Assembly: GCA_025041175.1 (NCBI GenBank)
Contig: JAKCFJ010000003.1
Location: 682,001-746,000 of the forward strand
Direction of reading: 5' to 3'
DNA: 64,000 bases
DNA from: Halobacteriales archaeon YIM A00010
Lineage (GTDB): Archaea; Halobacteriota; Halobacteria; Halobacteriales; Haloarculaceae
In this document: piece by piece, positions 11,058 through 44,262 of the stretch
How positions within the stretch are numbered: position 1 is the first letter of the stretch
Layout of the letters: every line of letters begins with the position of its first letter
Position numbers and translations under genes: made by a program
The notes under the pieces: generated by a model
Database searches by the model: none
Seen by the model: only the letters and a program-made list of their open reading frames with translations
Told to the model about the DNA's origin: nothing

Positions 11058-11066
11058 GTCGTTTCG

Positions 11067-17108: not shown

Positions 17109-17639
17109 TTCCATCCAATCATGTAGTATACATCCAACGGCAGGAATTACAAGAAAAAATCAAAAATGTATCAGAACGATCGTTGGGCGCTGTCTAGTCA
17201 GTCGTTCATCAACTCCTCAACTGGCATGCGGTTGTTGAGTGCTTGTTCGGTCGTTGAACGTTGGTAGTAGACGAAGCCACTAACGCGTTAACGTCTGTCA
17301 CAAGAGTACTCTACAGGGCTCAAAGAATGAACGACGCTATGTCCTGGCTGGACGGTCCTAATCGACCGGAGAACGCCGATGAGCTGCTCGACAGGTGCTT
17401 GCGCATGAGAGTAACGTCCGAGACGACCCTGTCAAGATCGTCAGCCGCCCATTTGGATTCAACAGCGACAAAGCACGACTGATCAGAATGGACGATAGTG
17501 CTGTCGCTAGACACTCACTGGTGCCGCTCGAACGCCTTCAGATCGCTGCGGTGTCAGTAAGCGTTTGTGAAGCGAAGTAAAACACCTCGACAGTTTATGA
17601 AACTCGCTATTCATCCCCATCTTGTTTAGATATCAGTTA

Positions 17640-18005
17640 TATACTATTTCTACTTCTGGTAAATTTGATGTTCAGTGCGGTCATTTCCCCATGTACAACG
17701 CCGAGCGACAGCCCGAGGATGGTCGCAGCCCGGATCACGTTGCGGTCGATGAGGCCGTGATCCTTCTCGGTACCGTGATTCGTACGAGACACGGTGTCGC
17801 CGAGGCTGTGTGTGCCGTTGATGGAGCGACACCACTCCAAGCGTAGGCCCGACACGGCCGCGATATCAGATCCGAACATCGCGGCCATCGAAACAGCGTC
17901 GAACATATAGTTTATCAGATAAAATATAGGAATTATCCCATTTCAAATTATTTCAATAATACCGAGAGGGAAACTGCTGGCGAGTGGTTACGATCGTTCA
18001 CCGTC
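17640..18005 (+). pseudogene. IS6-family (haloarchaeal ISH15-like) transposase relic 1
   Basis: Plus-strand fragments read AERQPEDGRSPDHVAVDEAV (first DDE aspartate), AVCAVDGATPLQA (second aspartate), HRGHRNSVEHI (region of the catalytic glutamate), and at the end SNYFNNTERETAGEWLRSF. The N-terminus is missing, there is an internal deletion after DEAVILLGT, and stops and frameshifts break the frame. The block around 17702-17735 is nearly identical in DNA to 21953-21986 in relic 2. Together with that copy it brackets three redox genes. Confidence 0.65.
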
Positions 18006-24375: not shown

Positions 24376-27219
24376 TCACGTTTCGAGAGCGGATTCTCGC
24401 GGGCCGAGGTACGTCTCCCGGTCACGGTCGGCGTAGACGACGATCCGGTCCACGATGAGACCTGGATCCAATGCTCGGAGTTGCAGGGTGTGAGTCCCCG
24501 GGGTCTCGATCCCGTGGGTCGTCGTCGCTAGTGCGGCTCCACGGAGGACGTTCCGTTGCCACTGGGAATCGTGTTCCCCGCCGTCGGGATCGATCGAAAC
24601 GACCGATCTCTCGCCGCCGTCGATGGAGACGGCGTACCGTAGATCCCGCCGTTCGTTGAGGGCTTGGGTCGGGATGCACTGCACTTCGACATCGACCGGT
24701 CCGGTCGTGGACAGTTCGATGTCGTACTCCAACAGCGGGGTGGCGTCGCTTCCTGGAGCGTGGCTCGGAAACGTCGACGGCTCCACGGCGATGGTCGACC
24801 CCGAAACGCGTCCCGGTACGTCACACCGGCTCCAGGTGCTCGAATCGCCGTCGTGGACCCTGCTGTAGTGCTCCGCCTCGACTGCGACGGCTCCGTTCGT
24901 CTCGAGGAAGTCACCGCGAGGTCCGCTCGATGGCGGGACCGTCTCGACGCGAACAGTCTTTTCGACGCCGCCGCCTTCGATCGTCACCGTACCTGTTGCG
25001 CGCCGCGGGGCGGCGTCCCACTCTATCCCGATCCACAATCGTCGTTCTCCACCGACGGTTCCCTCGGTGGCATCGAGGTCGATCCACTCGTGATCGGTCG
25101 TCGCGGACCATTCGACCGAGTCGTCGCCGCGGGTGAAAATATCGATGAAGCGTTCGGGATCGGTGTCCGGATCGAACGCTGGTAACGACGGCGGCGTGCT
25201 CTCGTGCCTGCGAACCGGTGCCCGATGACCCTCCGCCACAACGCCGAGTGCAGCACCCTTCTGTGGCGTCACACTCCCCGTCGCGGGAGCGTCGAACACG
25301 GGCAGCTCTCGTGGCTGATGCGACATCATCCCGGCCCACTTGCCGTCACACAGCTCCTCGTTGTAGTACCGCGTCTCGGACTCGATCCGGCGGTGGGCGC
25401 GCTCGGCCAGTTCGGCGTAGCGGTTCGCTGTCGTGCGGCCTTGTCCGGCGTACAGCCGGCTGCGAGCCGCGTGAAGGTGCTTTTTCGTCATCGATGCAGC
25501 GCAGCGCACCTGATACAGCACCAGCTGATAGAAGCCCGGTCGCCGCTCCGGCGGGAGAGTTTCGTAGACTGACTCCGCCCGCTCGAGGAGGCGTTCGAAC
25601 GCGTCGACCCGTCGGCGCGCTTCGTCGCCCTCCTGAACGAAACTGAACGCCGGCTCGTCCGGAGCGGTGTCCGGATACACCGTCGACCAGCCCATGTGTT
25701 CGGGCTTGCGCGCGAGCGACAGCCGGTAGTACTCGTCGAGGATCTTGGCGACGTCGTCGGCACGAGCCGCTCCGAACTCGCGGTCGGCCCAGTTGCGCAG
25801 CCACTCGGTGCTTGAGACGGATCGGGTGGTCTCGACGTCCCACGCGAGATCGAGAGCGAACTCCAGCTCCGTTTCGGTCGGCTTGATATCGCCGACGTTT
25901 ATCACCCAGTAGTCGCGAACACCCGCGTCGTACGCTTTCACCAGTTCGGTCCGGACGAGACCGAGAGGGATGCTCGACAACCAGAGATAATCGTGGGGAC
26001 GGCCCCAGTATGAAAGGTGATAGTACATCCCTGAACCGCCCTCGCGGCTCCGCTCGGCGCCGGTCGGAAGCTCTCGAACGTAGCCGTGGTTGTCGTCGGG
26101 CCACAGTAGACAGACGTCCTCAGGAACGTCGAGACCCCCGCGATACACGTCGAGGACCTCCTTGTACGGACAGAACACCTGGGGTATCTCCTCGACGGGC
26201 CGGTCGTGGGCCTCGTCCAACAGTCGCCGCTGATCGTCGATCACTTGCTGGAGCAACTCGGCCGTCTCCGCTCGGGAATCTCCGCCAGCCATTCCGGAGT
26301 CGTGGATCCCACGCATTCCGAGGGTGAAGACGTTCTCGTGGTCCGCCACGGCTTCGACGCGCGAGCGCCAGTACGTCAGTATCCGCTCGCGGCTCGTCGC
26401 ATAGTTCCACTCGCTGGGGGAGCCCTCCCATTCGTCGACGTTGTTTCTGTGCAGCGGTTCGCAGTGTGACGTACCCACGATGATCGCGTACGCCTCGGCG
26501 ACCTCCGGGTTCCCGGGATACCGGTAGAACGCCTTCGTACCGGGATGCATCGCCGGCCAGATGGTGTTCGCCTTGAGGCGCAACAGTAACTCGAAAATCC
26601 GAGCGTAGGTCGTCGGCCCGATCCCGGGTCGATCGTCGGCCTCATCCGGAGCGAACGTCTCCGACGCCCATGGTCGTAATCCGAAATCCTCGTCGTTGAG
26701 GAAGATCCCTCGATGGGTCACCGAGGGAGGCCCGAAGCTGTGCGTTCCCGACTCCACGAAGATCCTATCGCGCTCCGCAACCGTAACGTCTGCCCACCAG
26801 TACCACGGCGAGACGCCGATCCGCTCCGACAGCTCGTACGCCCCGTAGGCCGTCCCGCGGCGATCGCTCCCCGCGATCAGTACGCACGACTCGACGTCCG
26901 GAAGCGGTCGCTTGATCGTCTCGATGACGAAACTCTCCCGCTCGTCCGTCAGCGTCGCGGCGTCGACGTCGCTCGCCTGCAGGCACCGCTCGATCCCCTC
27001 GGAGCGACCGATCGTCCCGACGATCACGGCGGTCTCGGAGAGCTCATCTATCGAACCGGTAACCGTGGGACTGCGTCCGGTTACACGCTCGATATCGTCG
27101 CCAACGTCGGTCGCCGCAATGTTCGCGACCTCGTGATCGTCCCCGCCGACGTAAATGTCGGCGAGCGCGTTCCCAGACACGATCGGAACATCGCCGTCCG
27201 ACGGTTTGTCGGTTATCAT
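24376..27219 (-). CDS. Glycoside hydrolase family 115 (xylan alpha-1,2-glucuronidase)
   Basis: 947 aa from ATG 27219. ATG 27366 would add 49 residues unlike the family; MITDKPSDGDVPIV fits the GH115 start. Recognised from THRGIFLNDEDFGLRPW, LKANTIWPAMHPGTKAF, YAIIVGTSHCEP, NEWEGSPSEWNY-like text after HRNNVDEWE, FTLGMRGIHDSGM, WPDDNHGYVRELP and the YHLSYWGRPHDYLWL block. An N-terminal alpha/beta domain (1-130), the catalytic barrel (about 150-480), a helical domain and a C-terminal beta-sandwich follow the family order. GH115 removes 4-O-methyl-glucuronic acid from internal xylose of xylan. No signal peptide, so it probably acts in the cytosol on imported oligosaccharides delivered by the importer at 27804-33862. 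Confidence 0.93.
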   Translation of the reverse strand: MITDKPSDGDVPIVSGNALADIYVGGDDHEVANIAATDVGDDIERVTGRSPTVTGSIDELSETAVIVGTIGRSEGIERCLQASDVDAATLTDERESFVIETIKRPLPDVESCVLIAGSDRRGTAYGAYELSERIGVSPWYWWADVTVAERDRIFVESGTHSFGPPSVTHRGIFLNDEDFGLRPWASETFAPDEADDRPGIGPTTYARIFELLLRLKANTIWPAMHPGTKAFYRYPGNPEVAEAYAIIVGTSHCEPLHRNNVDEWEGSPSEWNYATSRERILTYWRSRVEAVADHENVFTLGMRGIHDSGMAGGDSRAETAELLQQVIDDQRRLLDEAHDRPVEEIPQVFCPYKEVLDVYRGGLDVPEDVCLLWPDDNHGYVRELPTGAERSREGGSGMYYHLSYWGRPHDYLWLSSIPLGLVRTELVKAYDAGVRDYWVINVGDIKPTETELEFALDLAWDVETTRSVSSTEWLRNWADREFGAARADDVAKILDEYYRLSLARKPEHMGWSTVYPDTAPDEPAFSFVQEGDEARRRVDAFERLLERAESVYETLPPERRPGFYQLVLYQVRCAASMTKKHLHAARSRLYAGQGRTTANRYAELAERAHRRIESETRYYNEELCDGKWAGMMSHQPRELPVFDAPATGSVTPQKGAALGVVAEGHRAPVRRHESTPPSLPAFDPDTDPERFIDIFTRGDDSVEWSATTDHEWIDLDATEGTVGGERRLWIGIEWDAAPRRATGTVTIEGGGVEKTVRVETVPPSSGPRGDFLETNGAVAVEAEHYSRVHDGDSSTWSRCDVPGRVSGSTIAVEPSTFPSHAPGSDATPLLEYDIELSTTGPVDVEVQCIPTQALNERRDLRYAVSIDGGERSVVSIDPDGGEHDSQWQRNVLRGAALATTTHGIETPGTHTLQLRALDPGLIVDRIVVYADRDRETYLGPRESALET

Positions 27220-27390
27220 AGCGATTGGTTCGGTGTTCGAAACGGACCGGTAAAAAAGGTCACGAGTTCCAAGCGCCGCTGTTCGACGGTGTGGGTTCGT
27301 TGGCGAGCCCCGATCAGCATCGCTCCACCAGTGATCCGCGTGGTTTAACACAGTAACCTTTGTCATGGACGGGCATGAACTACGGACACA

Positions 27391-27615
27391 ATGTCAGAAG
27401 AGACGTTCAGTGACGTGCTTTGTGGGTTTCGTCACCAATTCCACCTCCTATTTATGGTTTCGGTGCTGTCGTTAGTCATCCTAGGAACTGCGCTGACGCT
27501 CATCGAGAGCGGAACTGGCACGTACGTTATCACGGTGCTACAACTCGTAACGTTCGTCGTGGTCGGTTCGTTCTCGCTTGGGATGATGATTCTTTGTGCG
27601 CGGAAGAACGAGTGA
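27391..27615 (+). CDS. Small two-helix membrane protein, unknown
   Basis: 74 aa with two hydrophobic segments (about 17-38 and 45-68), an N-terminal soluble part and a basic C-terminal end (CARKNE). No family recognised. It is divergent from GH115 and precedes the importer; codon use and composition look genuine. Function unknown. Confidence 0.6.
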   Translation: MSEETFSDVLCGFRHQFHLLFMVSVLSLVILGTALTLIESGTGTYVITVLQLVTFVVVGSFSLGMMILCARKNE

Positions 27616-27773
27616 TCACACGTCGCACTACACTGCTCGAGCCGAAGCTCATCTCGGCGTATCGCAGTGTAGTATCTGTACGCCCCGACCCGGTGCCGTT
27701 ATCACCGACGGGTGTGTAAAGACCGCCCGGAAATACGTCATTATATTGTATAGAACACCATACTCGTCCGAAA

Positions 27774-27781
27774 AATACATA
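27774..27781 (+). promoter_or_regulatory. TATA-like box of the oligopeptide/oligosaccharide-type importer operon
   Basis: AAATACATAA is centred about 27 nt before GTG 27804. It suggests a leaderless start at the GTG; ATG 27813 would then have a 9-nt leader. Confidence 0.45.
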
Positions 27782-27803
27782 AGGATGGCTCATATGGATC
27801 TCC

Positions 27804-29591
27804 GTGGGAAAGATGATCAATGCCCACCGTCATTTGAGTAGACGTACATTCATCGGGACCAGCGGCGCGATGCTTGCAGCAGCACTTGCTGGTTGTCAGG
27901 GTGATGCCGGCAGCGATACGTCGCGATTCGCCACGGCGTTCGAAGGCGGTCGTCCACCGACAGGGGTTCATTTCAATCCCTGGAATCCGTCGGACTACGC
28001 CCAGACGTACAGTATCTACTGGATTCAGCCCACCACGTCGGTGCACGGCGACGGATCAGTATCTACGAGTTTCTTCGAGAATCTGAGTGTTGACGGGCGG
28101 GACGTCACGATCGAGTTCCCAACGAACTGGAGCTACTGGAACGGCGACGATATCACCGCCGAGGATTACCTCGTCGAGGCGGAGATCGACCGATACCAGG
28201 ATCCGGAGGGATCGCCCATCGAAGGCCACGAACTGGTTGATGATTACACCGTCCGCCGAACCTACAAGGACGACGTCTCGTCGACCATTGCGAAAGTGAA
28301 CGCCGGCTACGGGATGGCAGCACCCAAATCGGTCTTTCGAGAATACCTCGAACGCTACCAGGACGCCACCACCGAGAACGAACGCCAGGCTGTCACCGAC
28401 GATCTCCTCCAGATGACCATCCCGACGGAGGAGTTCGTCGATCAGGGTCTGGGCAGTTCACTGTTCAAAATCGAGGACTTCAACTCTTCGGAGACGCTGG
28501 CAGTGAAGCAGGACGATCACCCGTGGTCAGATCGGACGGACATCGATGAGATCCGGGTCCTGCCGAACGTCGAATCCGGGACGCAAGTCGAGCAGCTCGA
28601 GAAGAGCAACGAGCTCGACATGACGCAGTACATCACCGACAATCAGCGTTCGGAGTACCCCGATACCCTCGAGAACGTCTACGAGCTGAGCCACTACAAC
28701 TGCCAGAAGTACATGCTGAACCGGAACAACGAGCACCTCGCGAACCGATCGGTTCGGCGGGCGATCATCGCAGCGATCGATATCCCTTCGATCGTCGACG
28801 CGGCAACGCAGACGGGCATGCTTGCGTCGCCAACGCAGGTCCAGACGGGGATCCGGGAGACCATCGAAGAGATGTACCTCGGGGAGGGCTTCACCGACCA
28901 ACTCATCCAGTACCCCGTCGGGGCCGACGAGGAGACGGCACGCGGGTACATGGAAGACGCCGACTATTCGCTGGAGGACGAGACGTGGGTTAGTCCGGAC
29001 GGCACGGCCATCTCCTTCGACATCATCACGCAATCCGCCGTCGCACAGTCCCAGCCGACGAAAGTGTTCAGCGACCAGCTGAACGGGTTCGGCATGGAGA
29101 CGAACATGAACGCGATCGGCCAGGACTACTACTCGAAACTCCAGGAGTGGGAGTTCGATATCGCCTGGATCTGGCACGTCGCGCTCCCGTTCTGGCATCC
29201 GACAGCCTACTTCTCGAACGACTTCTACGGTATCCTCGCTGGGGATCCGGGCAGTGGTGACGATACTGGTCCGACCGGCGTGCCATTCTCGATCGAAATC
29301 CCCGAGGAGGTCGGCGCGGAAGAAGTCGGGAGCAACGGCGTCGAAATCAACCCTGCACAGCTCATGACTGATCTGAAGGCCGCATCGTCCGAAGAAGAGA
29401 CGAGAGAGCTCACACGGCAACTCGTTCAGTGGGTCAACTTCGATCTCCCCTCGATCATTCACATGCAGGAAAACCGCGGCTTCGGCGGCGACGTCGAGAA
29501 CTTCAGCTTCCCCGATCCGGACGAAACCCGCCTCGATCGGCCGAATCCCGGTCCGTGGGCGTTGACGAGCGGGTTAATCTCGACCAAGTAG
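27804..29591 (+). CDS. ABC substrate-binding lipoprotein, family 5 (DppA/OppA type)
   Basis: 595 aa (GTG start, or 592 aa from ATG 27813). Tat lipoprotein signal: SRRTFIGTSG followed by AALAGC. The mature sequence follows the family-5 receptor plan: FNPWNPSDYAQTYSIYW near the N-terminus, FPTNWSYWNGDDITAEDYL, the hinge region with NNEHLANRSVRRAIIAAID and the C-terminal lobe with WHPTAYFSNDFY. These receptors bind peptides, nickel or, in archaea, often oligosaccharides. Location next to GH115 argues for a xylan-derived oligosaccharide. First gene of the operon. Confidence 0.92.
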   Translation: MGKMINAHRHLSRRTFIGTSGAMLAAALAGCQGDAGSDTSRFATAFEGGRPPTGVHFNPWNPSDYAQTYSIYWIQPTTSVHGDGSVSTSFFENLSVDGRDVTIEFPTNWSYWNGDDITAEDYLVEAEIDRYQDPEGSPIEGHELVDDYTVRRTYKDDVSSTIAKVNAGYGMAAPKSVFREYLERYQDATTENERQAVTDDLLQMTIPTEEFVDQGLGSSLFKIEDFNSSETLAVKQDDHPWSDRTDIDEIRVLPNVESGTQVEQLEKSNELDMTQYITDNQRSEYPDTLENVYELSHYNCQKYMLNRNNEHLANRSVRRAIIAAIDIPSIVDAATQTGMLASPTQVQTGIRETIEEMYLGEGFTDQLIQYPVGADEETARGYMEDADYSLEDETWVSPDGTAISFDIITQSAVAQSQPTKVFSDQLNGFGMETNMNAIGQDYYSKLQEWEFDIAWIWHVALPFWHPTAYFSNDFYGILAGDPGSGDDTGPTGVPFSIEIPEEVGAEEVGSNGVEINPAQLMTDLKAASSEEETRELTRQLVQWVNFDLPSIIHMQENRGFGGDVENFSFPDPDETRLDRPNPGPWALTSGLISTK

Positions 29592-29646
29592 GAACGTAAC
29601 AAATTGTCGTATCCATGAAGAAGACGAATTCATCAAAAGATCGGCC

Positions 29647-30666
29647 ATGAGAACTGATTATTTCGTAAAGCGCGTCGGACAGGCGGTGTTGACGTTTTTC
29701 GCAACGGTGACGCTCACGTTTGTCCTGTATCGGATGATGCCGGGCGGACCGGCTGAAGCGCTCCAAAACGTCATCTTGCAGCAACAGATGGGATCCGGTA
29801 ACACGATCGATCCGGCCCGAGTCGAACGGTTGGTCGCACAGTATACGAACCTACAGAGCGATGCACCACTGTACGAACAGTACATACAGTACATGAGCAG
29901 CGTCTTTCTTGAACAGGATCTCGGGGAGTCGCTTTATGAGGATGCGTCCGTGACCTCGCTGCTCGCCGAACGGATCCCGTGGTCGATGCTCATCAGCGTC
30001 TACGCCATGGTGATCGGATACACGGTGAGCATCGTGCTCGGTGCTGTGATGGCCTTCAAGGAAAAATCCCGGTTCGACTCGATCTCCTCAATCGTCGTTA
30101 TCGGTCTCAACTCCACGCCGTATTACGTTGTCGGGATCCTGTTCATTTTCTTCTTCGGTATTCGGAACGAGTTCTTCCCGACGGGGGGGCGGGTCGGGCT
30201 GGGCGTCGAAGAAGGATTCAACGCAGCGTTTATGCAGAGTATTGCGTACCACGCCGCATTGCCGGTGCTCTCGATGAGCGTTCTCGGACTCGGCACAGCG
30301 TTGACGATGCGGGGCAACTCCGTTCGAGTACTCGGAGAGGACTACCTGCGCGTCGCGAAGCTACGCGGGCTTCGCAACTCCCGCATCGCGACCCAGTACG
30401 TGGGACGAAACGCTATCCTGCCGATGTACACGCAGTTCATGATCGGTATCGCCGGCGTACTCAGCAGTTCAGTCATCGTCGAGGAGATCTTCTCCTATCC
30501 GGGCGTCGGGCTACTCGTGTACGACGCCATCCAGGTACGGAACTACCCGGTGCTCATGGGATCACTCATCGTGTTTACCCTCGTGACGATCGTTGCGATC
30601 CTGATCGCGGATCTGACGTACGGATTCATCGATCCCCGCATCTCATCCGGAGGAACCGATGAGTAG
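29647..30666 (+). CDS. ABC permease, DppB type
   Basis: 339 aa. The N-terminal RVGQAVLTFFATVTLTFVLY helix and RMMPGGPAEAL, about six membrane helices, and the coupling loop VLGEDYLRVAKLRGLRNSRI with a downstream PMYTQFMIGIAG and VVEEIFSYPGVG are diagnostic. The long extracytoplasmic loop between helices 1 and 2 is present (about residues 35-100). Its stop overlaps the start of the next permease by 8 nt, showing translational coupling. Confidence 0.93.
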   Translation: MRTDYFVKRVGQAVLTFFATVTLTFVLYRMMPGGPAEALQNVILQQQMGSGNTIDPARVERLVAQYTNLQSDAPLYEQYIQYMSSVFLEQDLGESLYEDASVTSLLAERIPWSMLISVYAMVIGYTVSIVLGAVMAFKEKSRFDSISSIVVIGLNSTPYYVVGILFIFFFGIRNEFFPTGGRVGLGVEEGFNAAFMQSIAYHAALPVLSMSVLGLGTALTMRGNSVRVLGEDYLRVAKLRGLRNSRIATQYVGRNAILPMYTQFMIGIAGVLSSSVIVEEIFSYPGVGLLVYDAIQVRNYPVLMGSLIVFTLVTIVAILIADLTYGFIDPRISSGGTDE

Positions 30667-31660
30667 TGACCGACCTGACGATTCGGAAGGACTCGAGAGC
30701 CTCTTCGACGCTGACAGCGACCGAGAGCCAGTTCCACGGTCACAGCGACTCGAGCGGCAGTTCGATCTGTACGTCGCTGCGCCCGTCCGCGTTGCGATGA
30801 CCGATTGGCGTGCTATCGTTGGAACGGCGATCATCCTCGTCTTCATCCTGATGGGAACCCTGGGCGTTTGGCTCGTCGACAAGCCCACGAGCGGTGATGC
30901 GCCAGTTCTCGAACCACCGTTCCAGAACCCAAGCTACATTCTCGGGACGGACACCTTCGGACAACCGATCGGGGCACAACTCATTCATGCAACACCGGAT
31001 ATGTTCCGGATGGTGTTCGCTGGAGCGGTCGTGAGCGTCGGATTCGCGGCGGTAGTCGGCGTCGTTTCGGGGTTCCTTCGCGGTTCGACGGTCGATACGA
31101 CACTGATGGCGATAACCGACATCATCATCACCATTCCCGGACTTCCGCTTGTCATCGTTCTCATCGCTATCTTCCAGCCGGGGAATCCGTACGTCATCGG
31201 CGTCCTGCTGGGGCTCGACAACTGGCCCGGGTTAGCGAGGACCGTGCGGTCGCAAGTGCTTAGCATCCGGGAGGAGTCGTACGTCGAAGCGTCACAGATC
31301 ATGGGCATCTCGACGGGGACGATCCTCCACCGGGACGTACTCGCCCAGCTGATGCCCTACATAACGGTGAACTCGGCACTGGCCTCCCGACGTATCATCT
31401 TCGAGTCCGTGGGACTGTACTTCCTGGGAATTCTTCCGTTCACGACGTTCAACTGGGGCGTCATGATGAACATTGCCTACGAGGGGAACGCGTTGAATCG
31501 CCCGGACATGTACCACTTCCTCGCTTTCCCGTTGCTGACGATCTTCCTGATGTCGTTCGGACTCGTGTTGTTCTCACAGGGAATGGACAGCGTGTTCAAC
31601 GTCCGACTCAGGGCGCGCCACTCGTCGACAATCGACGACGACGGAGGTCCCAAATCGTGA
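30659..31660 (+). CDS. ABC permease, DppC type
   Basis: 333 aa. An acidic N-terminal tail precedes the first helix (GTAIILVFILMGTLGVWLVD), then LGTDTFGQPIGAQLIHATP, the usual DppC signature for the loop, and the coupling segment EESYVEASQIMGISTGTILHRDV. Six helices are visible. It pairs with the DppB-type permease to form the heterodimeric channel; the start ATG 30659 lies inside the preceding gene. Confidence 0.93.
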   Translation: MSSDRPDDSEGLESLFDADSDREPVPRSQRLERQFDLYVAAPVRVAMTDWRAIVGTAIILVFILMGTLGVWLVDKPTSGDAPVLEPPFQNPSYILGTDTFGQPIGAQLIHATPDMFRMVFAGAVVSVGFAAVVGVVSGFLRGSTVDTTLMAITDIIITIPGLPLVIVLIAIFQPGNPYVIGVLLGLDNWPGLARTVRSQVLSIREESYVEASQIMGISTGTILHRDVLAQLMPYITVNSALASRRIIFESVGLYFLGILPFTTFNWGVMMNIAYEGNALNRPDMYHFLAFPLLTIFLMSFGLVLFSQGMDSVFNVRLRARHSSTIDDDGGPKS

Positions 31661-31712
31661 CCCGATCGACGGAGTATACCACTGTCAGCAATCCACTACG
31701 ACAATACGACAC

Positions 31713-32777
31713 ATGAGTGAAACAGACACAATCGTCGAGGTCCGAGACCTCGACATCACGTTTCAGATGAATCGTGGACAGTCGCGCGTCGTGCGCGACG
31801 TCGACCTCGACGTCGCTCGCAACGAGACGCTCGGTATCATCGGCGAAAGCGGGAGCGGGAAGTCCATGCTCGCTTCGTCGTTTCTCAACGCCGTCGTCGA
31901 GCCTGGCGTCTCGACCGGGGAGGTCACGTACCACCCGGAGGACGGGGACCCTATCCCCGTCTTGGAGCTATCCGAGTCCGAACTGGATCGATTCCGCTGG
32001 GAGCACGTCGCCATGGTGTTCCAGGGCGCGATGAGTTCATTCAACCCCGTCACGAAGATTCGCACACACTTCAGAGAAACCCTTCAGGATCACAACTGTG
32101 ATATTCCCGCCGGTATGGACCGAGCGCGCGAGCTCCTGGAAAGCGTGTATCTCGATCCGGACCGAATCCTCGCCTCGCACCCACACGAACTGAGCGGCGG
32201 CATGAAACAGCGCGCGCTCATCGCACTGAGTCTAGTACTCGAACCCGACGTGCTCGTTCTCGACGAGCCGACGGCCGCGCTGGATCTGCTGATGCAGCGC
32301 TCGATCGTCACGCTCCTGCGCGAATTACAGGAGGAGTACGATCTAACGCTCGTATTCATCACCCACGACCTCCCGCTGTTAACCAAGATCGCCGACCGTC
32401 TTGCCGTTATGTACGCGTTCAACGTCGTCGAGATCGGGACGACGGGTGATCTGCTATACAACGCTTCTCATCCGTACACGCGCGCGCTCCTCGATACGAC
32501 GCCGGATCTGAACGTGCCGGTCGACGAAATGAGCATCATCGAGGGGAGCAAGCCGGATCCAGTCGACCGGATTCCGGGGTGCTCGTACAATCCCCGGTGT
32601 CCGATGGCCGATGACCACTGTCGATCCGAAGAGCCGCCGATGATGGAGGTGCGTGACACCCAAGAGTCAGCGTGTTTCTACTACGACGAAGCTGCAGACG
32701 CTGTGCCGATCAGCGCCGCACCCGACAAAAACCCACCAGCCGGAAGAACCACCGCAATCGATGGGGGAGATAACTGA
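31713..32777 (+). CDS. ABC ATPase, DppD type
   Basis: 354 aa. Walker A GESGSGKSM, Q-loop VFQGAMSSFNP, signature LSGGMKQRALIALSL, Walker B VLVLDEPTAALD and H-loop FITHDLPLL. The C-terminal oligopeptide-type extension carries GCSYNPRCPMADDHC and a later SACFY, four cysteines that in characterised Dpp ATPases bind a [4Fe-4S] cluster. Its stop overlaps the next start at 32777, so the two ATPases are coupled and form a heterodimer. Confidence 0.94.
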   Translation: MSETDTIVEVRDLDITFQMNRGQSRVVRDVDLDVARNETLGIIGESGSGKSMLASSFLNAVVEPGVSTGEVTYHPEDGDPIPVLELSESELDRFRWEHVAMVFQGAMSSFNPVTKIRTHFRETLQDHNCDIPAGMDRARELLESVYLDPDRILASHPHELSGGMKQRALIALSLVLEPDVLVLDEPTAALDLLMQRSIVTLLRELQEEYDLTLVFITHDLPLLTKIADRLAVMYAFNVVEIGTTGDLLYNASHPYTRALLDTTPDLNVPVDEMSIIEGSKPDPVDRIPGCSYNPRCPMADDHCRSEEPPMMEVRDTQESACFYYDEAADAVPISAAPDKNPPAGRTTAIDGGDN

Positions 32778-33862
32778 TGAACACCTCCGAACCAATGCTC
32801 TCGATGGACAACGTCTCCGTCGAATTCACCGAGGACGGGGGACTGCTCGGTATCTCCGGCGAATCCGAGACAGTCAGGGCGGTCAACGACGTGTCTCTCG
32901 ACCTCGGCGAACAGGAGACGCTCACGCTCATCGGTGAGAGCGGGTGCGGCAAATCGACGCTCGGAAAGACGGCAATTGGCGCCCAGAAGCCGACCAGCGG
33001 AACGGTTAGCTACCGCGGCCAGGATATCTGGGAGGCGCGAAACGGCGCTGGCCACGTTTCGATCCCCTTCGACGAGATTCGTCACTCGCTCCAGATCATT
33101 CACCAGGATCCGGGGAGTGCGCTCAACCCGAATCAGCGGATCCTTACTTCGTTGATGCTCCCGCTGAAACAGTGGTACCCCGATCTCAGCCGTGAAGAAC
33201 GAGAGGAGCGCATCCACACGCTGTTCGAACGGGTCGGGATGTCACCGCCCGGCGATTACCTGAACCGGTACCCCCACCAGTTGAGTGGTGGGGAAACCCA
33301 GCGTGCGGTCCTCGTTCGTGCGCTGTTGTTGAACCCCGACCTGATCCTAGCCGACGAGGCGATCAGCGCGCTCGACGTGTCCCTGCGCGTCGAGATGATG
33401 GATCTCATGCTGGAGCTGCAGGACCTGTTCCAGACTTCGTACCTCTTTATCTCGCACGATATGTCGAATGCGAGATACATAGCCGAAAAGTCCGGCGGGC
33501 GCATCGCCGTGATGTACCTCGGCGAGATCGTCGAAGTCGGAACCGTCGAGGCGATCACCGAGAACCCACAGCATCCCTACACGAAGGCGCTACAGTGGGC
33601 GACGGCAAACCTCTACGAGGACGAAGGCGAAGAGGAGTTCCCTCTGCGGAAAATAGACGTCCCGGACCCGACGAACCGTCCCTCTGGCTGCCACTTCCAC
33701 CCGCGGTGTCCAAACGCTCGCGAGGTGTGCCAACGCCAGCACCCGGAGCAGATCCACGTTGGCGAGGAAACGAACTACGCCCGGTGCTTCCGGGCGGACG
33801 AGAACCACGAGTACTGGAACAGCCCGGAGATACCGGCCGAATCGTCGGAGGACGCTCGTTGA
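32777..33862 (+). CDS. ABC ATPase, DppF type
   Basis: 361 aa. Walker A GESGCGKST, IIHQDPGSALNP Q-loop region, signature LSGGETQRAVLVRAL, Walker B ADEAISALD and H-loop FISHDMS. The C-terminal extension again holds the cysteine set (GCHFHPRCPNAREVC and YARCFR). A long acidic segment near residues 275-290 is typical halophilic adaptation. It completes the importer (receptor, two permeases, two ATPases). Confidence 0.94.
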   Translation: MNTSEPMLSMDNVSVEFTEDGGLLGISGESETVRAVNDVSLDLGEQETLTLIGESGCGKSTLGKTAIGAQKPTSGTVSYRGQDIWEARNGAGHVSIPFDEIRHSLQIIHQDPGSALNPNQRILTSLMLPLKQWYPDLSREEREERIHTLFERVGMSPPGDYLNRYPHQLSGGETQRAVLVRALLLNPDLILADEAISALDVSLRVEMMDLMLELQDLFQTSYLFISHDMSNARYIAEKSGGRIAVMYLGEIVEVGTVEAITENPQHPYTKALQWATANLYEDEGEEEFPLRKIDVPDPTNRPSGCHFHPRCPNAREVCQRQHPEQIHVGEETNYARCFRADENHEYWNSPEIPAESSEDAR

Positions 33863-33888
33863 GAGGCTGTTCTGACACTGTGCCCACT

Positions 33889-34134
33889 ATGACCGACAAC
33901 ACCGATATGGACACGTCCAGACAATCGAACTCCAAACGGCGTCGATCCACGAGTCTCCCGGGCAGCCGGGGACTCTGGATATCGATCGGGATCGGGATCG
34001 CGCTGATTCTCACCGGTATGTTCGCCTTCGACGGGCCGATGGCAGGCGTTCTTGGCCTGTGGGGGCTCTCACTCCTCGCCGTATCCGTCGTCGGATACGT
34101 CGCGTATCGCCTCTGGTATCACTACGGTTCGTGA
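33889..34134 (+). CDS. Small two-helix membrane protein at the end of the importer operon
   Basis: 81 aa. A basic N-terminus (SKRRRST) precedes two hydrophobic segments (about 31-47 and 52-74). It begins 26 bp after the DppF-type stop in the same direction, so it is probably cotranscribed. No family recognised; the role is unknown. Confidence 0.6.
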   Translation: MTDNTDMDTSRQSNSKRRRSTSLPGSRGLWISIGIGIALILTGMFAFDGPMAGVLGLWGLSLLAVSVVGYVAYRLWYHYGS

Positions 34135-34243
34135 GAACCGACTGGGGACGGGTTACTCGAGATTCCGACGGTCGACGCCGGGTGTTCGGCTATCAATCCG
34201 TCGTCGACAGCTCGGTGGTCCGCCGGTCGTCAGCGTGCGCCCG

Positions 34244-34996
34244 TCAACGCCGGTTCAGCACCGCAGCCATCGCCTCGTCGGCGTCGCCAGCGGGCGAGAA
34301 CTCACAGCCGACGTAGCCGTCGTACGCCGTCCCCTCGATCGCCTCGAGTATGTTCTCGTAGTCGAGCTCACCGGTTCCCGGTTCGTGCCGACCGGGAACG
34401 TCGGCCACGTGGAAGTGACCGATGTAGTCGATGTTCTCCGTAATGTTCTGGATGACGTTGCCCTCAGTGATCTGCTGGTGGTAGATGTCGTAGAGCAGGC
34501 GGACGTTCGGCGAGCCGACCGCGTCGACGATTTCGTACCCCTCTTCGGACGTTTCGAGGTAGTACCCCGGATGATCGACCGCCGTATTCAACGGTTCCAG
34601 AACGATCGTCACGCCCGCCGCTTCGGCGTCGGGCGCGACCCGCGAGAGGATATCGACGATAGAATCGTGCTGAGTCGCCCGATCCAGCCCGTCCTGGTCC
34701 GGACCGGTCGTCGCGATGAGCGAGGGGATCCCGAGGGAGGCTGCCGTTTCGATCGACTCCCGAATGGTCTCGACGGCGTCGTCGGCCGCGTCGGGATCGG
34801 TGAGCGTCCCGCCCGCGACGCAGCCGACGATCGGAATATCCGCATCGGCGGCGGCGTTCCGGACTTCGTCGAGGTCCTTCCCGCGCCAGTCCCAGAACTC
34901 GACGGCGTCGGCGCCCGCCCCAGCGGCCCGCGTAATTCGCTCGTGGAACGGCTCGTCGTCGTACACCATCTCCACGCAGACGGAAATTTTCGGCAT
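34244..34996 (-). CDS. Hydroxypyruvate-isomerase-like / xylose-isomerase-like TIM barrel
   Basis: 250 aa. The AP-endonuclease-2 fold is recognised from VLEPLNTAVDHPGYY, RLLYDIYHQQITEGN, HFHVADVPGRHEPGTGE and GCEFSPAGD, which supply the Glu, Asp, His and Glu metal ligands of hydroxypyruvate isomerase and related sugar epimerases. It is reached directly from the upstream Gfo/Idh gene with no gap (stop codon ends next to ATG 34996). Such pairs act on keto- or inosose-type sugars. Substrate unproven; an aldouronate or pentose derivative fits the GH115 context. Confidence 0.9.
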   Translation of the reverse strand: MPKISVCVEMVYDDEPFHERITRAAGAGADAVEFWDWRGKDLDEVRNAAADADIPIVGCVAGGTLTDPDAADDAVETIRESIETAASLGIPSLIATTGPDQDGLDRATQHDSIVDILSRVAPDAEAAGVTIVLEPLNTAVDHPGYYLETSEEGYEIVDAVGSPNVRLLYDIYHQQITEGNVIQNITENIDYIGHFHVADVPGRHEPGTGELDYENILEAIEGTAYDGYVGCEFSPAGDADEAMAAVLNRR

Positions 34997-36100
34997 TTAC
35001 TCGTCCTCCGTCGTCGAGGGGGTCAGCTCGCCGGATTTGACCATCGCTTCGAGCGGGTTATCGTCAATCTTCAGCGGGAGATCGACGCGACCGCGCCGGC
35101 GAGCGGACTCCCACGTGGCGAAGATCAGCTCGGTCGCGTTCAGCGCGTTCTCCGCTCCGAGTTCCGGTTCCTCGCCGGTCTCGAGGCAACGAACGTTCTC
35201 GGCGATGGCGCGGTCGATGAACTCCCAACTGTGCAGGCCGTCGTCGGTCTCGACCGCCTCCCACTCCTCGTTGCCGGCACGGCGGATCCGCAGCGTCGGT
35301 AACGCCTCGTTCTCGCCGGAGGGACCGAGTTCGATCGTGCCGCGAGTACCGATCAGTCGGTGGTGACAGCTGACGGCGCTCGTGGGACCCCTGCCGTCGG
35401 TGCTGTCGCTCGTTCCGAGACCGCTGACGCCGTTCTCGTACTCCCAGAGAACGACCGCCTGGTTCTCGTTATGCGAACCGAAGAGGATGTTCTCCTCGCC
35501 GTACTCGATCTGGCCGAGTGCCCAGTCGCCGGGAATCTCGTCGTTGAAGTAGTTACAGAGATCGAAGGAGTGGGAGCCGTAATCGAAGATGCCGGCCGGG
35601 GAGGCGAACTCGATCCGATCGAGATCGCCAATCGCACCCTCATCGAGCAACCCCTTTGCCGTTCTGACTGCGTCACTGAACCGCCGCTGGTGGTTGAACG
35701 TTAACTGGACGCCGTGACGACTCGCCTCCTGGGCCATCAGGTGCGCTCCGCCGTAACTGTCGGCCATCGGCTTCTCGCAGTGAATCGCCTCGACGACGCC
35801 CGACCGGATGCAGTCGATCGCGATCGTGTCGTGGACCGCCGGTGGCACACACAGCGAGACGATATCGGGTTTGACCGTCTCGAGCAGTTTGCCGTACGCC
35901 TCGAAAACGTTCCCGTCGTCGATGTCGAACACCCTGGCGAACGTCTCGGCGTTCTCGGGGACGATGTCCGCACACGCGACGAGATCGCACTCGGCGTGGT
36001 TCTCGTAGGCAGTAGCGTGATGATACGCCATCGCGTAGCCGTCTTCGTCGGGATCATCCGGTTCTGTGCCGGTACCGATCACAGCGACTCGGTAAGACAT
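34997..36100 (-). CDS. Gfo/Idh/MocA-family NAD(P)-dependent oxidoreductase
   Basis: 367 aa; start ATG 36100 is supported by a TATA box 28 nt upstream (the frame extends to 36139). The Rossmann N-terminus VAVIGTGTEP, the cofactor-contact EKPMADSYGGAHLM (Glu-Lys-Pro hallmark, about residues 98-101), and the C-terminal sheet with GIFDYGSHSFDLCNYF containing the D-x3-H catalytic pair are present. These enzymes oxidise sugars or inositols at one carbon. It is transcribed with the TIM-barrel isomerase and converges on the importer operon. Confidence 0.93.
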   Translation of the reverse strand: MSYRVAVIGTGTEPDDPDEDGYAMAYHHATAYENHAECDLVACADIVPENAETFARVFDIDDGNVFEAYGKLLETVKPDIVSLCVPPAVHDTIAIDCIRSGVVEAIHCEKPMADSYGGAHLMAQEASRHGVQLTFNHQRRFSDAVRTAKGLLDEGAIGDLDRIEFASPAGIFDYGSHSFDLCNYFNDEIPGDWALGQIEYGEENILFGSHNENQAVVLWEYENGVSGLGTSDSTDGRGPTSAVSCHHRLIGTRGTIELGPSGENEALPTLRIRRAGNEEWEAVETDDGLHSWEFIDRAIAENVRCLETGEEPELGAENALNATELIFATWESARRRGRVDLPLKIDDNPLEAMVKSGELTPSTTEDE

Positions 36101-36123
36101 ACGCTTCGATAGTGGAGAGCACG

Positions 36124-36131
36124 GTATAATA
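36124..36131 (-). promoter_or_regulatory. TATA box of the Gfo/Idh - isomerase operon
   Basis: The minus strand reads ATTATTATACCG, centred 28 nt before ATG 36100, predicting a leaderless mRNA. It decides the start codon of the dehydrogenase. Confidence 0.6.
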
Positions 36132-36132
36132 A

Positions 36133-37409
36133 TTGTCACGGCTGGGACGCGACGGATCGGTATCGTCGGCGTCGGCTGCGTCGGTCTCCACCTTGGTGCT
36201 TCCAGTTGCGTGGCCGGGATCGTCCGATAACACCGGAAACACAGCTACTGAAAGCGATCGACGGCAAGCGCTGTCTCCGTGCGCCGATTTTGGACCAGAC
36301 CGATGGAGTGCTCAGCGCTGTGAGTGTCTCCGAGCGTGAGCCAACTGCACGACAATCGCTCCGGGATCGAGATCCCGCGGCGTGGGAGTACCACGAACGG
36401 TCTCGAAGTCGACACGACCTACTTGTGTCCGTCCGGTATTCCCGAACGGATTCATTCCATTTTATTTATATATGTGTCAAAATAGCCGGTATCACCTTCG
36501 AACTATCGACAATCACATGGTTACACTACCGACAAATCAACCAGTACGCGGCGGCGCTACGACTCCTGAGAAATGATACAGAAACAGTATGAGAACCACT
36601 TCCGGTGTCCTTTATTGCGAAATAGTCCTGTCGGCGGTGGTCTTGGGCAGAATCCCCGGAAGTGTGCAGTTCGAACAATAACTCCACCACACCGTTCGAT
36701 GATACCGGACAGACTCAATTCAGACGGAATTTATTTCGCGTCTATAACTAAATACAGTAATCAACAGCAAAGCTACTACGCGAGCGACCTGAGCGGAGAA
36801 CGTGTGGTACACGAACGAGCCACGCTGAGCTATGACAACAACCCTGTCGTCATAGTATACGCCGTGTACGTTCCTCGAAAACGCCGCGCTCGACGAAGAC
36901 CATCAGTGCGTCACATCTGAGCAGCGCAAAGACACTATCTGTTACATATTATTCCTTGTATATTATCCGCGTGCGCCGTACAGTCACTCTCCGACACCTG
37001 AAGGGAAGTGGACAATCTCGATCTGCTATCGCACAGTATAGCCCGAAAATAGTGGGAATATCTTTTTATTGTGGTAATAGTATTTATTATAACACTTATT
37101 CTTCGATCTACCATCCTAATCCCACTACTATGTACAATCACACGGGATTTTTCTACGGTTATACAAGAGGTACAGGAGCAGGTTCCTCCATAATGGTATC
37201 TGAATTATATGATATATAATGAAGATAGTGGCTCTAATATATTTAACTATTTCTGTAGATGAACGCGGAAGTGTGAACACGACACGCCGGATCGCCGCTA
37301 TCCACGAGTACTGGACCGTGCGCAAATGAACTCGGTTCGAGAACGTCCACGAGGCGGGAGCGACTTCTGCTATCCCAACCGTTATCTCTCGCAGCCACCC
37401 ACACCACAT
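36133..37409. other. Gene-free spacer, 1.3 kb, increasingly AT-rich to the right
   Basis: Between divergent Gfo/Idh and flavin monooxygenase genes. Short frames on the plus strand at 36206-36592 and elsewhere show no recognised family. A conserved dyad lies at 36828-36857. The part 36930-37260 is notably AT-rich and may hold the promoter of the gene at 37410; a sharp fall in G+C suggests inserted or decayed DNA. Confidence 0.5.
36828..36857. repeat. 30-bp dyad related to 17079-17108
   Basis: CTATGAC and GTCATAG form the inner inverted arms. Read on the minus strand, the 30 bp match 17079-17108 at about 24 positions including the central CAGRGTTRTT. It is the second copy of the same motif. 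Confidence 0.5.
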
Positions 37410-41214: not shown

Positions 41215-42498
41215 TTAGGGCCCTGTGAGCACCGTGCTGATACTCGGGACGAATCCGATCAACAGCACAAGGCCGATCAACGCCGCTAAGAACGGTAAAA
41301 TCTTGCTTGCGATCGGGAGGACGGACTCCTCGGTGACACCCGACATGACGTAGAGGTTCATCCCGAAGGGCGGAGTGATGAACCCAACGCCCAGTGCCGA
41401 GTTGAGGAAGACGGCGAAATGGACGGGATTCATCCCGATTTCTTGGGCGACGGGAAACAGGAGGGGGGCGAGGAGCAGTATGTTCGGCGTGGTTTCCATG
41501 ACCGCCCCAGCAACGATCAACACGACGAACATCAACAGTACTGCGATGTGGAAACTCCCTGTGGAGTTCGCGAACAGATTCACGATCAGATCCGGCAGTC
41601 CAATCGCGTTGAACGACTGACTCAGCGCCAGCGCGACGGCGATGATCGGGGAGATAACCCCGTTGACGACCGCACTCCGCTCGAAAAGGGTCTGGAAATC
41701 ACCGAGGGTGATCCGCCGCTGGGACACCCCGATGGCGACCGTCACGGCGACGGCGACAGCCGCCGATTCCGTCGGGGTGAAGATCCCGGAGTAGATACCG
41801 CCGAGGATGATGAGTGGGATGAGTAGCCCTTCGCGGGCGTTCCACGCCGCCGTAAGCATTTCTGATGGGCTGGCGAACTCGTGCCCACGTTCGTAGTCGT
41901 GCCGATGATTCACATAGATGTTCACAAACAGGATGCCAAAAAGGATCAGTACGCCCGGTAGTATCGCGGCAAGGAACAACTCCGACGCTGATATTCCGAT
42001 GGTAACGCCGATAATGATGTACGCGATACTGGGTGGGATGAGAATTCCGGTGGTTGCGCCGCTCGCGATGAGGGCGGCAGCGTAGTCGCCCGGGTATCCG
42101 TAGTCCTTCAGACTTCCGTGGGAGATGCGACCGATCGCAGCGGCGTCTGCCGCGTTCGAGCCGCTGATCGACGCGAACAGCCCACAGCCCAGTACGGTGG
42201 CCGAACCGACGCCAGACTTAAAGCCGCCGACGACCCTGTCGGCAAACGTTATGAGCTTCTCCGATATCCCGGATTCGACGACCGCGTCGCCCGTCAGGAT
42301 GAACAGCGGGATCGCAATGAGTGCGAACTGGTCGAGCCCACTATAGAGGTTGTCGCCGAAGAACGTCAGCTGGAACGATCCGGTCACCTGTAACAGGACA
42401 ATGATCCCGATGCCGATTGAGAACAGGACGGGAACGCCGAGGACTAACAACGCCACGATCAACAAGAGGGGAAGCAGTATCTCGAGCGAAATGGCCAT
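41215..42498 (-). CDS. dctM: TRAP transporter large membrane subunit
   Basis: 427 aa from ATG 42498, which overlaps the DctQ stop codon by one base (TGATG) and has GGAGGACAAC just upstream. About twelve hydrophobic segments; the DctM blocks GLDQFALIAIPLFILTGDAV, GLFASISGSNAADAAAIG, ASGATTGILIPPSIAYIIIG and VGFITPPFGMNLYV are all present. It is the sodium-driven channel subunit of a tripartite ATP-independent importer. Confidence 0.95.
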   Translation of the reverse strand: MAISLEILLPLLLIVALLVLGVPVLFSIGIGIIVLLQVTGSFQLTFFGDNLYSGLDQFALIAIPLFILTGDAVVESGISEKLITFADRVVGGFKSGVGSATVLGCGLFASISGSNAADAAAIGRISHGSLKDYGYPGDYAAALIASGATTGILIPPSIAYIIIGVTIGISASELFLAAILPGVLILFGILFVNIYVNHRHDYERGHEFASPSEMLTAAWNAREGLLIPLIILGGIYSGIFTPTESAAVAVAVTVAIGVSQRRITLGDFQTLFERSAVVNGVISPIIAVALALSQSFNAIGLPDLIVNLFANSTGSFHIAVLLMFVVLIVAGAVMETTPNILLLAPLLFPVAQEIGMNPVHFAVFLNSALGVGFITPPFGMNLYVMSGVTEESVLPIASKILPFLAALIGLVLLIGFVPSISTVLTGP

Positions 42499-43073
42499 CA
42501 GTTGTCCTCCTCGTATATCTCGAAGAGGCGTTCTCCCTGGTAAACCTGTTCGCCGTTCCACACCGACCGGGCGTCGAGGGCCAGCATCTGCACTGCCCGG
42601 AGCGCCATGAGCGTGAGACCGACAGGGATGGCTGCCTGGAAGAAGACGAGGCTTACGTCGATAGTGACGAGGGACCCCCCGTACAGCAAGGTCGTATTGA
42701 GCACCGGAACGAACGCCTCGAACGCGACCACGCAGAACGCGAGAATGACGAGATCGCTGAAGATGTAGAGGAGTCCCTCGATCCTGTCGGAGACGTATTG
42801 ATAGATGAAGTCAATACGAATATGTGAGCGCTGGCGAACCGCAAGACTAGCGCCAATCCAGGTGAGCCAGATGAAGAGCAACCGCGCAGTTTCTATCTCC
42901 CAGCCGCTCGTAGACTGGAGGACGAATCGATTGAAGACGCCCATAATGATGATAAACGTTATGTAAAAGTACGTCACTATTAATAGGTAGCGTTCGATGT
43001 TCTCGTCTAACCACACGGCGTATGGGCGCACGGTTTTTGGAATCATGATTCGAGTATCTTTATAATCGAACAT
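42498..43073 (-). CDS. dctQ: TRAP transporter small membrane subunit
   Basis: 191 aa with four hydrophobic segments and the family block ETARLLFIWLTWIGASLAV followed by RQRSHIRID. The start at ATG 43073 or at 43046 (MIPKTV) is uncertain. It lies 30 bp after DctP and overlaps DctM by one base. Confidence 0.92.
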   Translation of the reverse strand: MFDYKDTRIMIPKTVRPYAVWLDENIERYLLIVTYFYITFIIIMGVFNRFVLQSTSGWEIETARLLFIWLTWIGASLAVRQRSHIRIDFIYQYVSDRIEGLLYIFSDLVILAFCVVAFEAFVPVLNTTLLYGGSLVTIDVSLVFFQAAIPVGLTLMALRAVQMLALDARSVWNGEQVYQGERLFEIYEEDN

Positions 43074-43103
43074 AAAGGTATGGGCTTCGATTCTCGATGG
43101 TCC

Positions 43104-44240
43104 TCACAGGACCTCCTCGAGAGTGCCGATTTGAATATCGCTTTCTTGTTGCGTTGCTTCCTCCAAGCGGGTTCGGGCCTCTTCGTCCGGGAATACGTCG
43201 TTCATCAGGTCGTTCCACTCGTCGTTTCGGTCGTACGCGATGGCGTCTTTCCACTGTTCGAGCCTGTCCCCCTCGATGAGATGGAACTCGATGCCGGCTT
43301 CCTCGAGGTGTTCGACGGCGTTCTCTCGGAGTGTACCGTTCCGCTCTGCGTTTCCCTGTGTTGTCTTCTCGCCTGCGCGTTTGACTTGGTCCTGAAGTTC
43401 GCCAGGAAGCGAGTCGAACCATTGGTAGCTCATCCCCCAGACGCGACCGTCGTGGACGGCGTCGATGATGACTTCGTGACTGAGGAGGTCAGCGAAACCG
43501 GAGTTTGCGTGGTACTGTGGGGCGTTGTACATCGCGTTTGCGGTTCCCTCCTGGATAGCGGCCGGCGATTCTCCCCAGGGGATCTGCGTTGGGTTCCCTC
43601 CGAGCATCTCGAAAGCCGTGTTCGTGAACGGGGACCCGCCGGTCCGTTGGGTGATGTTTGCTGCTTGGATGTCACTGGGTGTGAGTGGTGGTTCTTCACC
43701 GCGGAACTGATTTCCCGGGGCCCAACAACGCGGGTCGTTGAACCCGTAGGAGAAGATTTCGAATCCACTTTCGTTGGCCTGGGACTCGACGATCTCCTGC
43801 CACGCGTCGCTCGTAACGAGATTCACGAACTCCTGGTTCTTCCCGGCGAAGTATGGGAGATTCTTGATGTCGAAGGAGGGTGCCACCGGTGAGAAGTTCT
43901 GTACGGAAGTGTCACCGAACTCGATCGTCCCCTGCTGGACCTTCTGCATGATGCCAGTCTCTTGGGCTCCGACCTGCCCTGCAGGGAATATTTCGACGGT
44001 GAGTTCGCCGTTGGTCTCTGCTTCGACGTTCTCCTTCAGACTCTCGATCGAGGTGGTAACGAAGTCGGAGTTGACGGCGTCGATGAGCGTCGCCGCCCGG
44101 ACGTTCGTCTTGTAATCAGAGCTGTCGTTGGCTCCCCCTCCGAGATCTGTGAGTCCTCCGTCGCCGACACAGCCAGCCAATCCAGCGGTAACCGCTGCGC
44201 CAGCGGCTGTTATATATTGCCGGCGGTTAACACGGGTCAT
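43104..44240 (-). CDS. dctP: TRAP transporter substrate-binding lipoprotein
   Basis: 378 aa. Tat lipoprotein signal NRRQYITAAG with lipobox LAGC (Cys 24). The DctP fold is recognised from VEAETNGELTVEIFPAGQVG, IEFGDTSVQNFSPVAP, the conserved basic site region near FNDPRCWAPGN and AMYNAPQYHANSGF. DctP receptors bind organic acids, often uronates or sulfonates, through an arginine. It is first in the operon and divergent from the DUF1450-sulfatase pair. Confidence 0.93.
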   Translation of the reverse strand: MTRVNRRQYITAAGAAVTAGLAGCVGDGGLTDLGGGANDSSDYKTNVRAATLIDAVNSDFVTTSIESLKENVEAETNGELTVEIFPAGQVGAQETGIMQKVQQGTIEFGDTSVQNFSPVAPSFDIKNLPYFAGKNQEFVNLVTSDAWQEIVESQANESGFEIFSYGFNDPRCWAPGNQFRGEEPPLTPSDIQAANITQRTGGSPFTNTAFEMLGGNPTQIPWGESPAAIQEGTANAMYNAPQYHANSGFADLLSHEVIIDAVHDGRVWGMSYQWFDSLPGELQDQVKRAGEKTTQGNAERNGTLRENAVEHLEEAGIEFHLIEGDRLEQWKDAIAYDRNDEWNDLMNDVFPDEEARTRLEEATQQESDIQIGTLEEVL

Positions 44241-44262
44241 GTCCTACCATTACGAACGATCA

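Follow-up and report, generated by a model that had tools for sequence, protein, structure and literature searches.

The window analysed here is a 64,000-nt stretch (G000:C3:682001-746000) from the genome of a haloarchaeon (5.97 Mb, 7 contigs); in it a complete GH115 alpha-uronidase gene lies next to a complete Dpp-type ATP-binding cassette (ABC) importer and a Gfo/Idh-isomerase gene pair. On balance, we favor the reading that this locus imports oligosaccharides of the rhamnogalacturonan-I (RG-I)/arabinogalactan type and removes an alpha-linked uronic acid from them in the cytoplasm. The initial annotation named glucuronoxylan and aldouronates as the substrate. That xylan label is probably wrong: the GH115 pocket is of the BtGH115A type, the neighboring genes in relatives are of the rhamnogalacturonan/pectin type, and the receptor follows PL11 rather than GH10 or GH67, so that the ligand with the most support is an oligosaccharide of the pectin/arabinogalactan type. 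The genes of the locus are as follows.

24376..27366, minus strand: GH115 alpha-uronidase of 996 aa, predicted cytoplasmic, with a BtGH115A-type pocket (Pfam PF15979, 428 bits, and GH115_C, 136 bits; PDB matches)
27804..29591, plus strand: Dpp-type (SBP_bac_5) receptor, predicted lipoprotein exported by twin-arginine translocation (Tat) (Pfam; N-terminal sequence; orthologue distribution)
29647..30666, plus strand: importer permease B, BPD_transp_1 (Pfam; 94% identity in G005)
30659..31660, plus strand: importer permease C, BPD_transp_1 (Pfam; 91% identity in G005)
31713..32777, plus strand: DppD-like importer ATPase, ABC_tran and oligo_HPY (Pfam; NCBIfam)
32777..33862, plus strand: DppF-like importer ATPase, ABC_tran and oligo_HPY (Pfam; NCBIfam)
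34244..34996, minus strand: AP_endonuc_2 sugar isomerase/epimerase (Pfam; NCBIfam; PDB)
34997..36139, minus strand: Gfo/Idh/MocA oxidoreductase (Pfam; PDB; orthologues); an alternative ATG start at 36100 is possible

The active-site pocket of the GH115 enzyme

Both the PF15979 catalytic domain and GH115_C are matched, placing the enzyme in family GH115, and its PDB matches are SdeAgu115A (555 bits), BtGH115A (546), BoAgu115A (422), wtsAgu115A (395) and AxyAgu115A (388). Residue roles were read off BoAgu115A (PMC3879575; statements on this and the other papers cited hold for the available parts of each), of which 20 residues were mapped by alignment. Seventeen are retained: Phe203, Asn205, Asp206, Trp245, Met248, His275, Arg328, Asp332, Tyr373, Lys374, Glu375, Asp396, Asn398, Tyr420, His422, Tyr425 and Asn462. 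The catalytic residues Asp332, Arg328, Glu375, His422 and Asp206 correspond to D356, R352, E403, H450 and D225 of the window enzyme. The three substitutions lie in the pocket or cleft (Trp249 to His274, Asp424 to Ser452, Val426 to Trp454), and BtGH115A carries the same His/Ser/Trp set at these aligned positions.

In BoAgu115A, Trp249 touches O3 of glucuronic acid (GlcA) and builds the pocket wall (PMC3879575), and wtsAgu115A Trp220, its equivalent in our alignment, contacts xylan (PMC9063842); the window enzyme has His274 instead of this tryptophan. For BtGH115A, arabinogalactan activity and no xylan activity have been reported, though the linkage is questioned by PMC9063842; these activity claims are second-hand, from PMC9063842 and PMC13059095. 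Since the catalytic residues are kept in a BtGH115A-type pocket, the window GH115 is most likely an active alpha-uronidase, and we do not file it as a xylan alpha-1,2-glucuronidase (EC 3.2.1.131). Among GlcA, 4-O-methyl-GlcA (MeGlcA) and galacturonic acid (GalA), (Me)GlcA would be the favored glycone because Tyr420, His422 and the O4 channel are kept.

We compared the pockets of 85 GH115 proteins, 11 haloarchaeal and 74 bacterial, the bacterial sample being biased to relatives of the query; L068 was dropped as unreadable. Two pocket classes, Trp/Asp and His/Ser (or Gln), are seen among the 85 (loci L008-L092), and every one of these proteins has the catalytic Asp. The Trp249 position is His in 11/11 haloarchaeal and 66/74 bacterial proteins and Trp in 8/74 bacterial ones; at the Asp424 position Asp occurs in 8/74 bacterial proteins, while all 11 haloarchaeal proteins combine Ser with the His. 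In a quick maximum-likelihood tree the haloarchaeal GH115 form a clade of their own (support 99), as do those of the Trp class (support 100), and 18 actinobacterial His-class rows make one block. The His/Ser class, almost uncharacterised, is the majority of the homologues compared. Because two pocket classes exist, a GH115 annotation alone should not be taken to mean xylan use.

By pattern and hydropathy, the called window GH115 has neither a Tat-like motif nor a hydrophobic stretch at its N-terminus, so the absence of a signal peptide in the initial annotation stands. An alternative start, the ATG at 27219 (codon 50), is preferred by coding score and leaves this result unaffected. The same two tests found no export signal in any of the 11 haloarchaeal GH115 genes; the G005 gene has an in-frame hydrophobic stretch ahead of its called ATG.

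The import-and-process unit and its relatives

The importer comprises an SBP_bac_5 receptor, two BPD_transp_1 permeases and two oligo_HPY ATPases by Pfam (27804-33862, plus strand), and is thus complete, as first described; the Gfo/Idh-isomerase pair (34244-36139, minus strand) likewise holds. We confirm that the gene set is a conserved import-and-process unit beyond chance, since the whole set is kept at 80–94% identity in G005, a genome of the same genus (L087), and the Gfo-isomerase adjacency recurs. The two genes are adjacent in 11/11 fetched places holding a Gfo orthologue of 66–87% identity (G005, G429:C2, G058, G443, G498, G499, G012, G003, G002, G065 and G496). Matches in G002:C1 and G006:C1 have identical coordinates, which probably makes the two genomes near-duplicates; the contamination listed for G006 is 9%.

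Distributions were determined in 80 genomes, 10 with GH115 and 70 without, the latter drawn in listing order from the 141 GH115-less relatives. Gfo alone is a common family (40/80 genomes at E≤1e-70), and for this reason only Gfo orthologues of at least 66% identity were counted; these occur in 9/10 genomes with GH115 vs. 4/70 without. GH115 itself is rare in haloarchaea, found in 4/145 relatives and 3/392 genomes drawn from the phylum (the genome of the window counted in both). A contig scan with the window GH115 kept 79 distinct loci of 596 confirmed; haloarchaea account for four of the 79 (Halorubrum lipolyticum, Halogeometricum pallidum, Halovivax sp. KZCA124 and Natronoglomus mannanivorans). 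The unit takes other forms as well. G429:C2 has GH115, Gfo and isomerase with the importer about 27 kb on at 77–87% identity, G429:C3 has GH115 and a Gfo of 44% identity, with the importer at 72–88%, and H. pallidum holds GH115, two Gfo, an isomerase, two receptors and an importer. As for a new haloarchaeal route of hemicellulose use, the unit stands but the xylan substrate is not supported, and haloarchaeal GH115 was already in print, with GH67 and GH115 listed for Natronoglomus under xylan/arabinoxylan (PMC10963439). We did not find GH115 tied to rhamnogalacturonan in archaea in the literature covered, which largely excludes subscription journals.

The genes around the unit in relatives are of a recurrent kind. 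PL11 and GH154 adjoin GH115 in G005. In G429:C2, GH105, GH154, PL22, PL11, GH78, CBM9, GDSL, GH4, UxuA, MR_MLE and GH42 lie between GH115 and the importer, and GH115, Gfo, isomerase, an ABC ATPase, the pectin-type genes and the orthologous five-gene importer all fall inside 50 kb. The GH115 of H. pallidum has a sulfatase beside it, among GH3, GDSL, GH78, GH28 and PL22, while GH78, GH4, GH28 and PL22 are the neighbors in KZCA124 and N. mannanivorans (L023). G058 has GH42 beside GH115, with Gfo, isomerase, PL11, GH4 and PL22 40 kb off; G443 has GH28, then Gfo, isomerase and GH4; and G496 has the importer and isomerase-Gfo in the order of the window, beside MR_MLE, PL22 and GH42. Linkage of PL11/GH105/GH78-type genes to the unit is seen in G005 and G429, and in part in G496 and G497. 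The PL11 of the genome studied is on another contig, G000:C2, where a second, paralogous importer occurs with PL22, GH42, GH78, GDSL, PL11, Gfo and GH4.

Bacterial GH115 loci were examined up to 10 kb around the gene by tblastn: 10 of 75 hold PL11, PL22, GH28, GH105 or GH78 and two hold GH10 or GH67, with misses likely for both groups because the probes were haloarchaeal proteins. Among the Pfam matches listed for the 90 neighbors of 15 loci with the strict BtGH115A signature (16 exist; L036 was left out) are GH2 (6), GH43 (5), GH88/105 (3), UxuA (3), GH106 (2) and PL22 (2). Those listed for the 72 neighbors of the 8 Trp-class loci include UxaC, UxuA, GH43 with a beta-xylosidase C-domain, and GH8 (2 each).

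In its distribution the receptor follows PL11. Orthologues were counted at E≤1e-80 and PL11 only when full-length, excluding partial matches in G497 and G049. Full-length PL11 is present in 7/10 genomes with GH115 vs. 4/70 without (p = 1.1e-5). The receptor orthologue occurs in 8/80 genomes, 7/11 with PL11 and 1/69 without (p = 7.9e-7). In GH115-less genomes it is present in 3/4 with PL11 and 0/66 without, and within the genus in 5/5 and 0/2, respectively. In all seven genomes having both, receptor and PL11 are on one contig, at most 35 kb apart. A weak enrichment of the receptor over all 80 genomes is seen with GH10 (5/24 vs. 3/56, p = 0.048) and with GH67 (6/20 vs. 2/60, p = 0.0025) as well; no receptor is found in the 13 GH115-less genomes with GH10 but without PL11, or in the 11 genomes with GH67 but without PL11.

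The remainder of the window holds several further features. A 74-codon open frame with a membrane-like product (27391-27615, plus strand) lies between the GH115 and receptor genes. Two very large ThuA proteins are encoded at 1-3807 and 4500-8468 (both minus strand), one with 3keto-disac_hyd, GSDH and Laminin_G domains, the other with DUF7133, copper-binding and dockerin domains and a Tat-like N-terminus. A sugar-type ABC set flanked by UPF0261 and PEP_hydrolase genes occupies 8955-15252, one permease (12395-14101) having an additional Yip1 domain. Positions 16001-18000 have a G+C content of 0.487 vs. ~0.58 in the surroundings, and a TRAP transporter (DctM/Q/P), a sulfatase and an IclR regulator lie near the locus at 41215-47266.

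Proposed pathway and competing substrates

MeGlcA is borne by pectic galactans and gums, and the RG-I backbone contains GalA-alpha-1,2-rhamnose (Rha). In the pathway that we propose, the polymer would be cut by exported enzymes encoded elsewhere, such as the PL11 at G000:C2 or that adjoining the unit in G005 and G429. Five haloarchaeal PL11 were examined: the pattern detects a Tat-like motif in two, and on visual inspection another two have a near-Tat N-terminus; no Tat-like motif was found in the haloarchaeal GH105, GH154, PL22, GH78, GH4 and GH28 examples examined. Acidic oligosaccharides would then enter through the Tat lipoprotein receptor and the Dpp-type importer. The cytoplasmic GH115, as an inverting alpha-uronidase, would take off alpha-linked (4-O-methyl-)GlcA or a similar uronic acid, and the Gfo/Idh-isomerase pair may process the released sugar or sugar acid. 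The isomerase is akin to hydroxypyruvate isomerase and 2-oxo-tetronate isomerase, with scores under their cut-offs, and the best PDB match of the Gfo/Idh protein is DgpA (60 bits, N-terminal domain only). We considered a 3-keto-glycoside route for the pair, for which these 60 bits and the 57 bits to 3-keto-D-glucoside 4-epimerase are too weak to make a claim.

Several observations weigh against an RG-I/arabinogalactan-type substrate. The window itself is without PL11, PL22, GH28 and GH105, so for this genome the pectin link depends on a different contig and on what relatives carry. GH115-positive G012 and G443 are without PL11, G497 has only the partial match, and five GH115-positive genomes (G058, G443, G498, G499 and G012) are without a receptor orthologue at the threshold used. 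GH10 (7/10 vs. 17/70, p = 0.0066) and GH67 (7/10 vs. 13/70, p = 0.0018) are also enriched with GH115, and all p-values given here are optimistic, as many genomes are close kin and independence is overstated. The His/Ser pocket is not exclusive, since it also occurs in L041 (Catenovulum), next to GH10 and GH67. N. mannanivorans, whose GH115 lies within a GH78/GH28/PL22 cluster, reportedly showed no growth on pectin, polygalacturonate or rhamnogalacturonan (PMC9726719), and natronoarchaeon A-rgal3, an isolate from rhamnogalacturonan plates, had marginal or no growth in liquid (PMC12343721).

The strongest competitor, though an unlikely one, is import of glucuronoxylan-derived aldouronates with intracellular deglucuronidation. 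Characterised GH115 are mostly xylan alpha-glucuronidases (PMC13059095), and the enrichments of GH10 and GH67 and the L041 locus speak for it, as does the presence of GH10 (3 matches) and GH67 in the genome, although on contig C2 and not on the window contig C3. Opposed to this, the Trp/Asp pair of the solved xylan enzymes is missing in 11/11 haloarchaeal GH115, none of the window proteins scanned was identified as GH10, GH67, a xylanase, a xylosidase or another xylan-related product, and GH10 is absent in G429, G496 and G497, carriers of close orthologues; the receptor, as noted, does not accompany GH10 or GH67 where PL11 is lacking. GH67 as a partner of the importer was also considered and set aside: its neighborhood at L128 contains UxuA, SDR, subtilase and acetamidase, and neither a receptor nor a permease is found among those of its proteins that were scanned.

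Slightly less probable still is that the system is as proposed and the polymer is not plant pectin but an exopolysaccharide rich in uronic acid and rhamnose, made by salt-lake algae, cyanobacteria or archaea, which pectin-type enzymes fit by chance. The growth results above favor this, the authors of PMC9726719 proposing an unknown activity for the haloarchaea that bear the gene set, and so does the sulfatase beside GH115 in H. pallidum; PL11 and PL22, on the other side, are families annotated for plant-pectin breakdown. A glycosaminoglycan (GAG) substrate, suggested by GH88/GH105, GH154 and the sulfatase, was set aside because PL11, PL22, GH78 and GH28 recur; GAG lyases were not searched for.

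It is very improbable that the importer serves peptides, dipeptides or nickel and merely neighbors GH115: the receptor's sole PDB sequence matches, all weak, are to DppE (26 bits) and to a pair of nickel/family-5 proteins, but its scores against the Dpp/Nik equivalogs of NCBIfam are far under the cut-offs, in relatives PL11, PL22, GH42 or GH78 is linked to its orthologues, and sugar-binding Opp-type receptors are reported in Thermotoga (cited within PMC3850815). The receptor's N-terminus combines a Tat motif with a lipobox (SRRTFIG...AGC), and a structure prediction from a 9-row alignment was of poor quality (pLDDT 51.5, pTM 0.38). The receptor is probably not one for peptides.

Returning to the RG-I/arabinogalactan-type substrate, a bolder and rather doubtful extension is that His/Ser GH115 is not a xylan class, that its haloarchaeal members cleave the alpha-1,2 uronide bond of rhamnogalacturonan-type chains as a new specificity, and that the Gfo-isomerase pair completes a new uronate or rhamnosyl-uronate route. 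By analogy, GalA-alpha-1,2-Rha would present the same bond type as GlcA-alpha-1,2-xylose. Such an enzyme would account for the haloarchaeal pectin-type clusters of unexplained substrate. A plausible xylan annotation shifts to a testable pectin-type one, and receptor and GH115 together offer a handle on what the PL11/PL22/GH28/GH105 sets of haloarchaea act on, given the reported non-growth (PMC9726719).

Comparison with known systems

BtGH115A of Bacteroides thetaiotaomicron (PDB 5by3) is of the nearest pocket class, with the catalytic Asp kept and the motifs WPAMH, SHCEP, RG(I/V)HD, YYHxSYWGRPHD and NDED(F/W)GL shared. It is bacterial, with arabinogalactan reported as substrate (PMC9063842), whereas the archaeal enzyme is without a signal peptide and stands beside an ABC importer. 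The xylan enzymes BoAgu115A, SdeAgu115A and wtsAgu115A are also GH115, and equivalents of Asp332, Arg328, Glu375 and His422 are kept, but their Trp249 and Asp424 are His and Ser in the window enzyme. In Maribacter, PUL 7 (a polysaccharide utilization locus) combines GH115 with GH78, two GH105 and GH43_18, and differs in its use of a SusC/D system and periplasmic enzymes (PMC11036162). Similar in arrangement are the published haloarchaeal GAG clusters, with an exported lyase, an ABC disaccharide importer and cytoplasmic GH88/GH154 (PMC13260240); the proposed sequence of exported lyase, import and cytoplasmic trimming would follow the same plan, with PL11/PL22/GH78/GH4 in place of the GAG lyase, and GH115 is not mentioned in the available parts of that paper. 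The layout is of a kind already known, and what is new is a non-xylan-type GH115 inside it.

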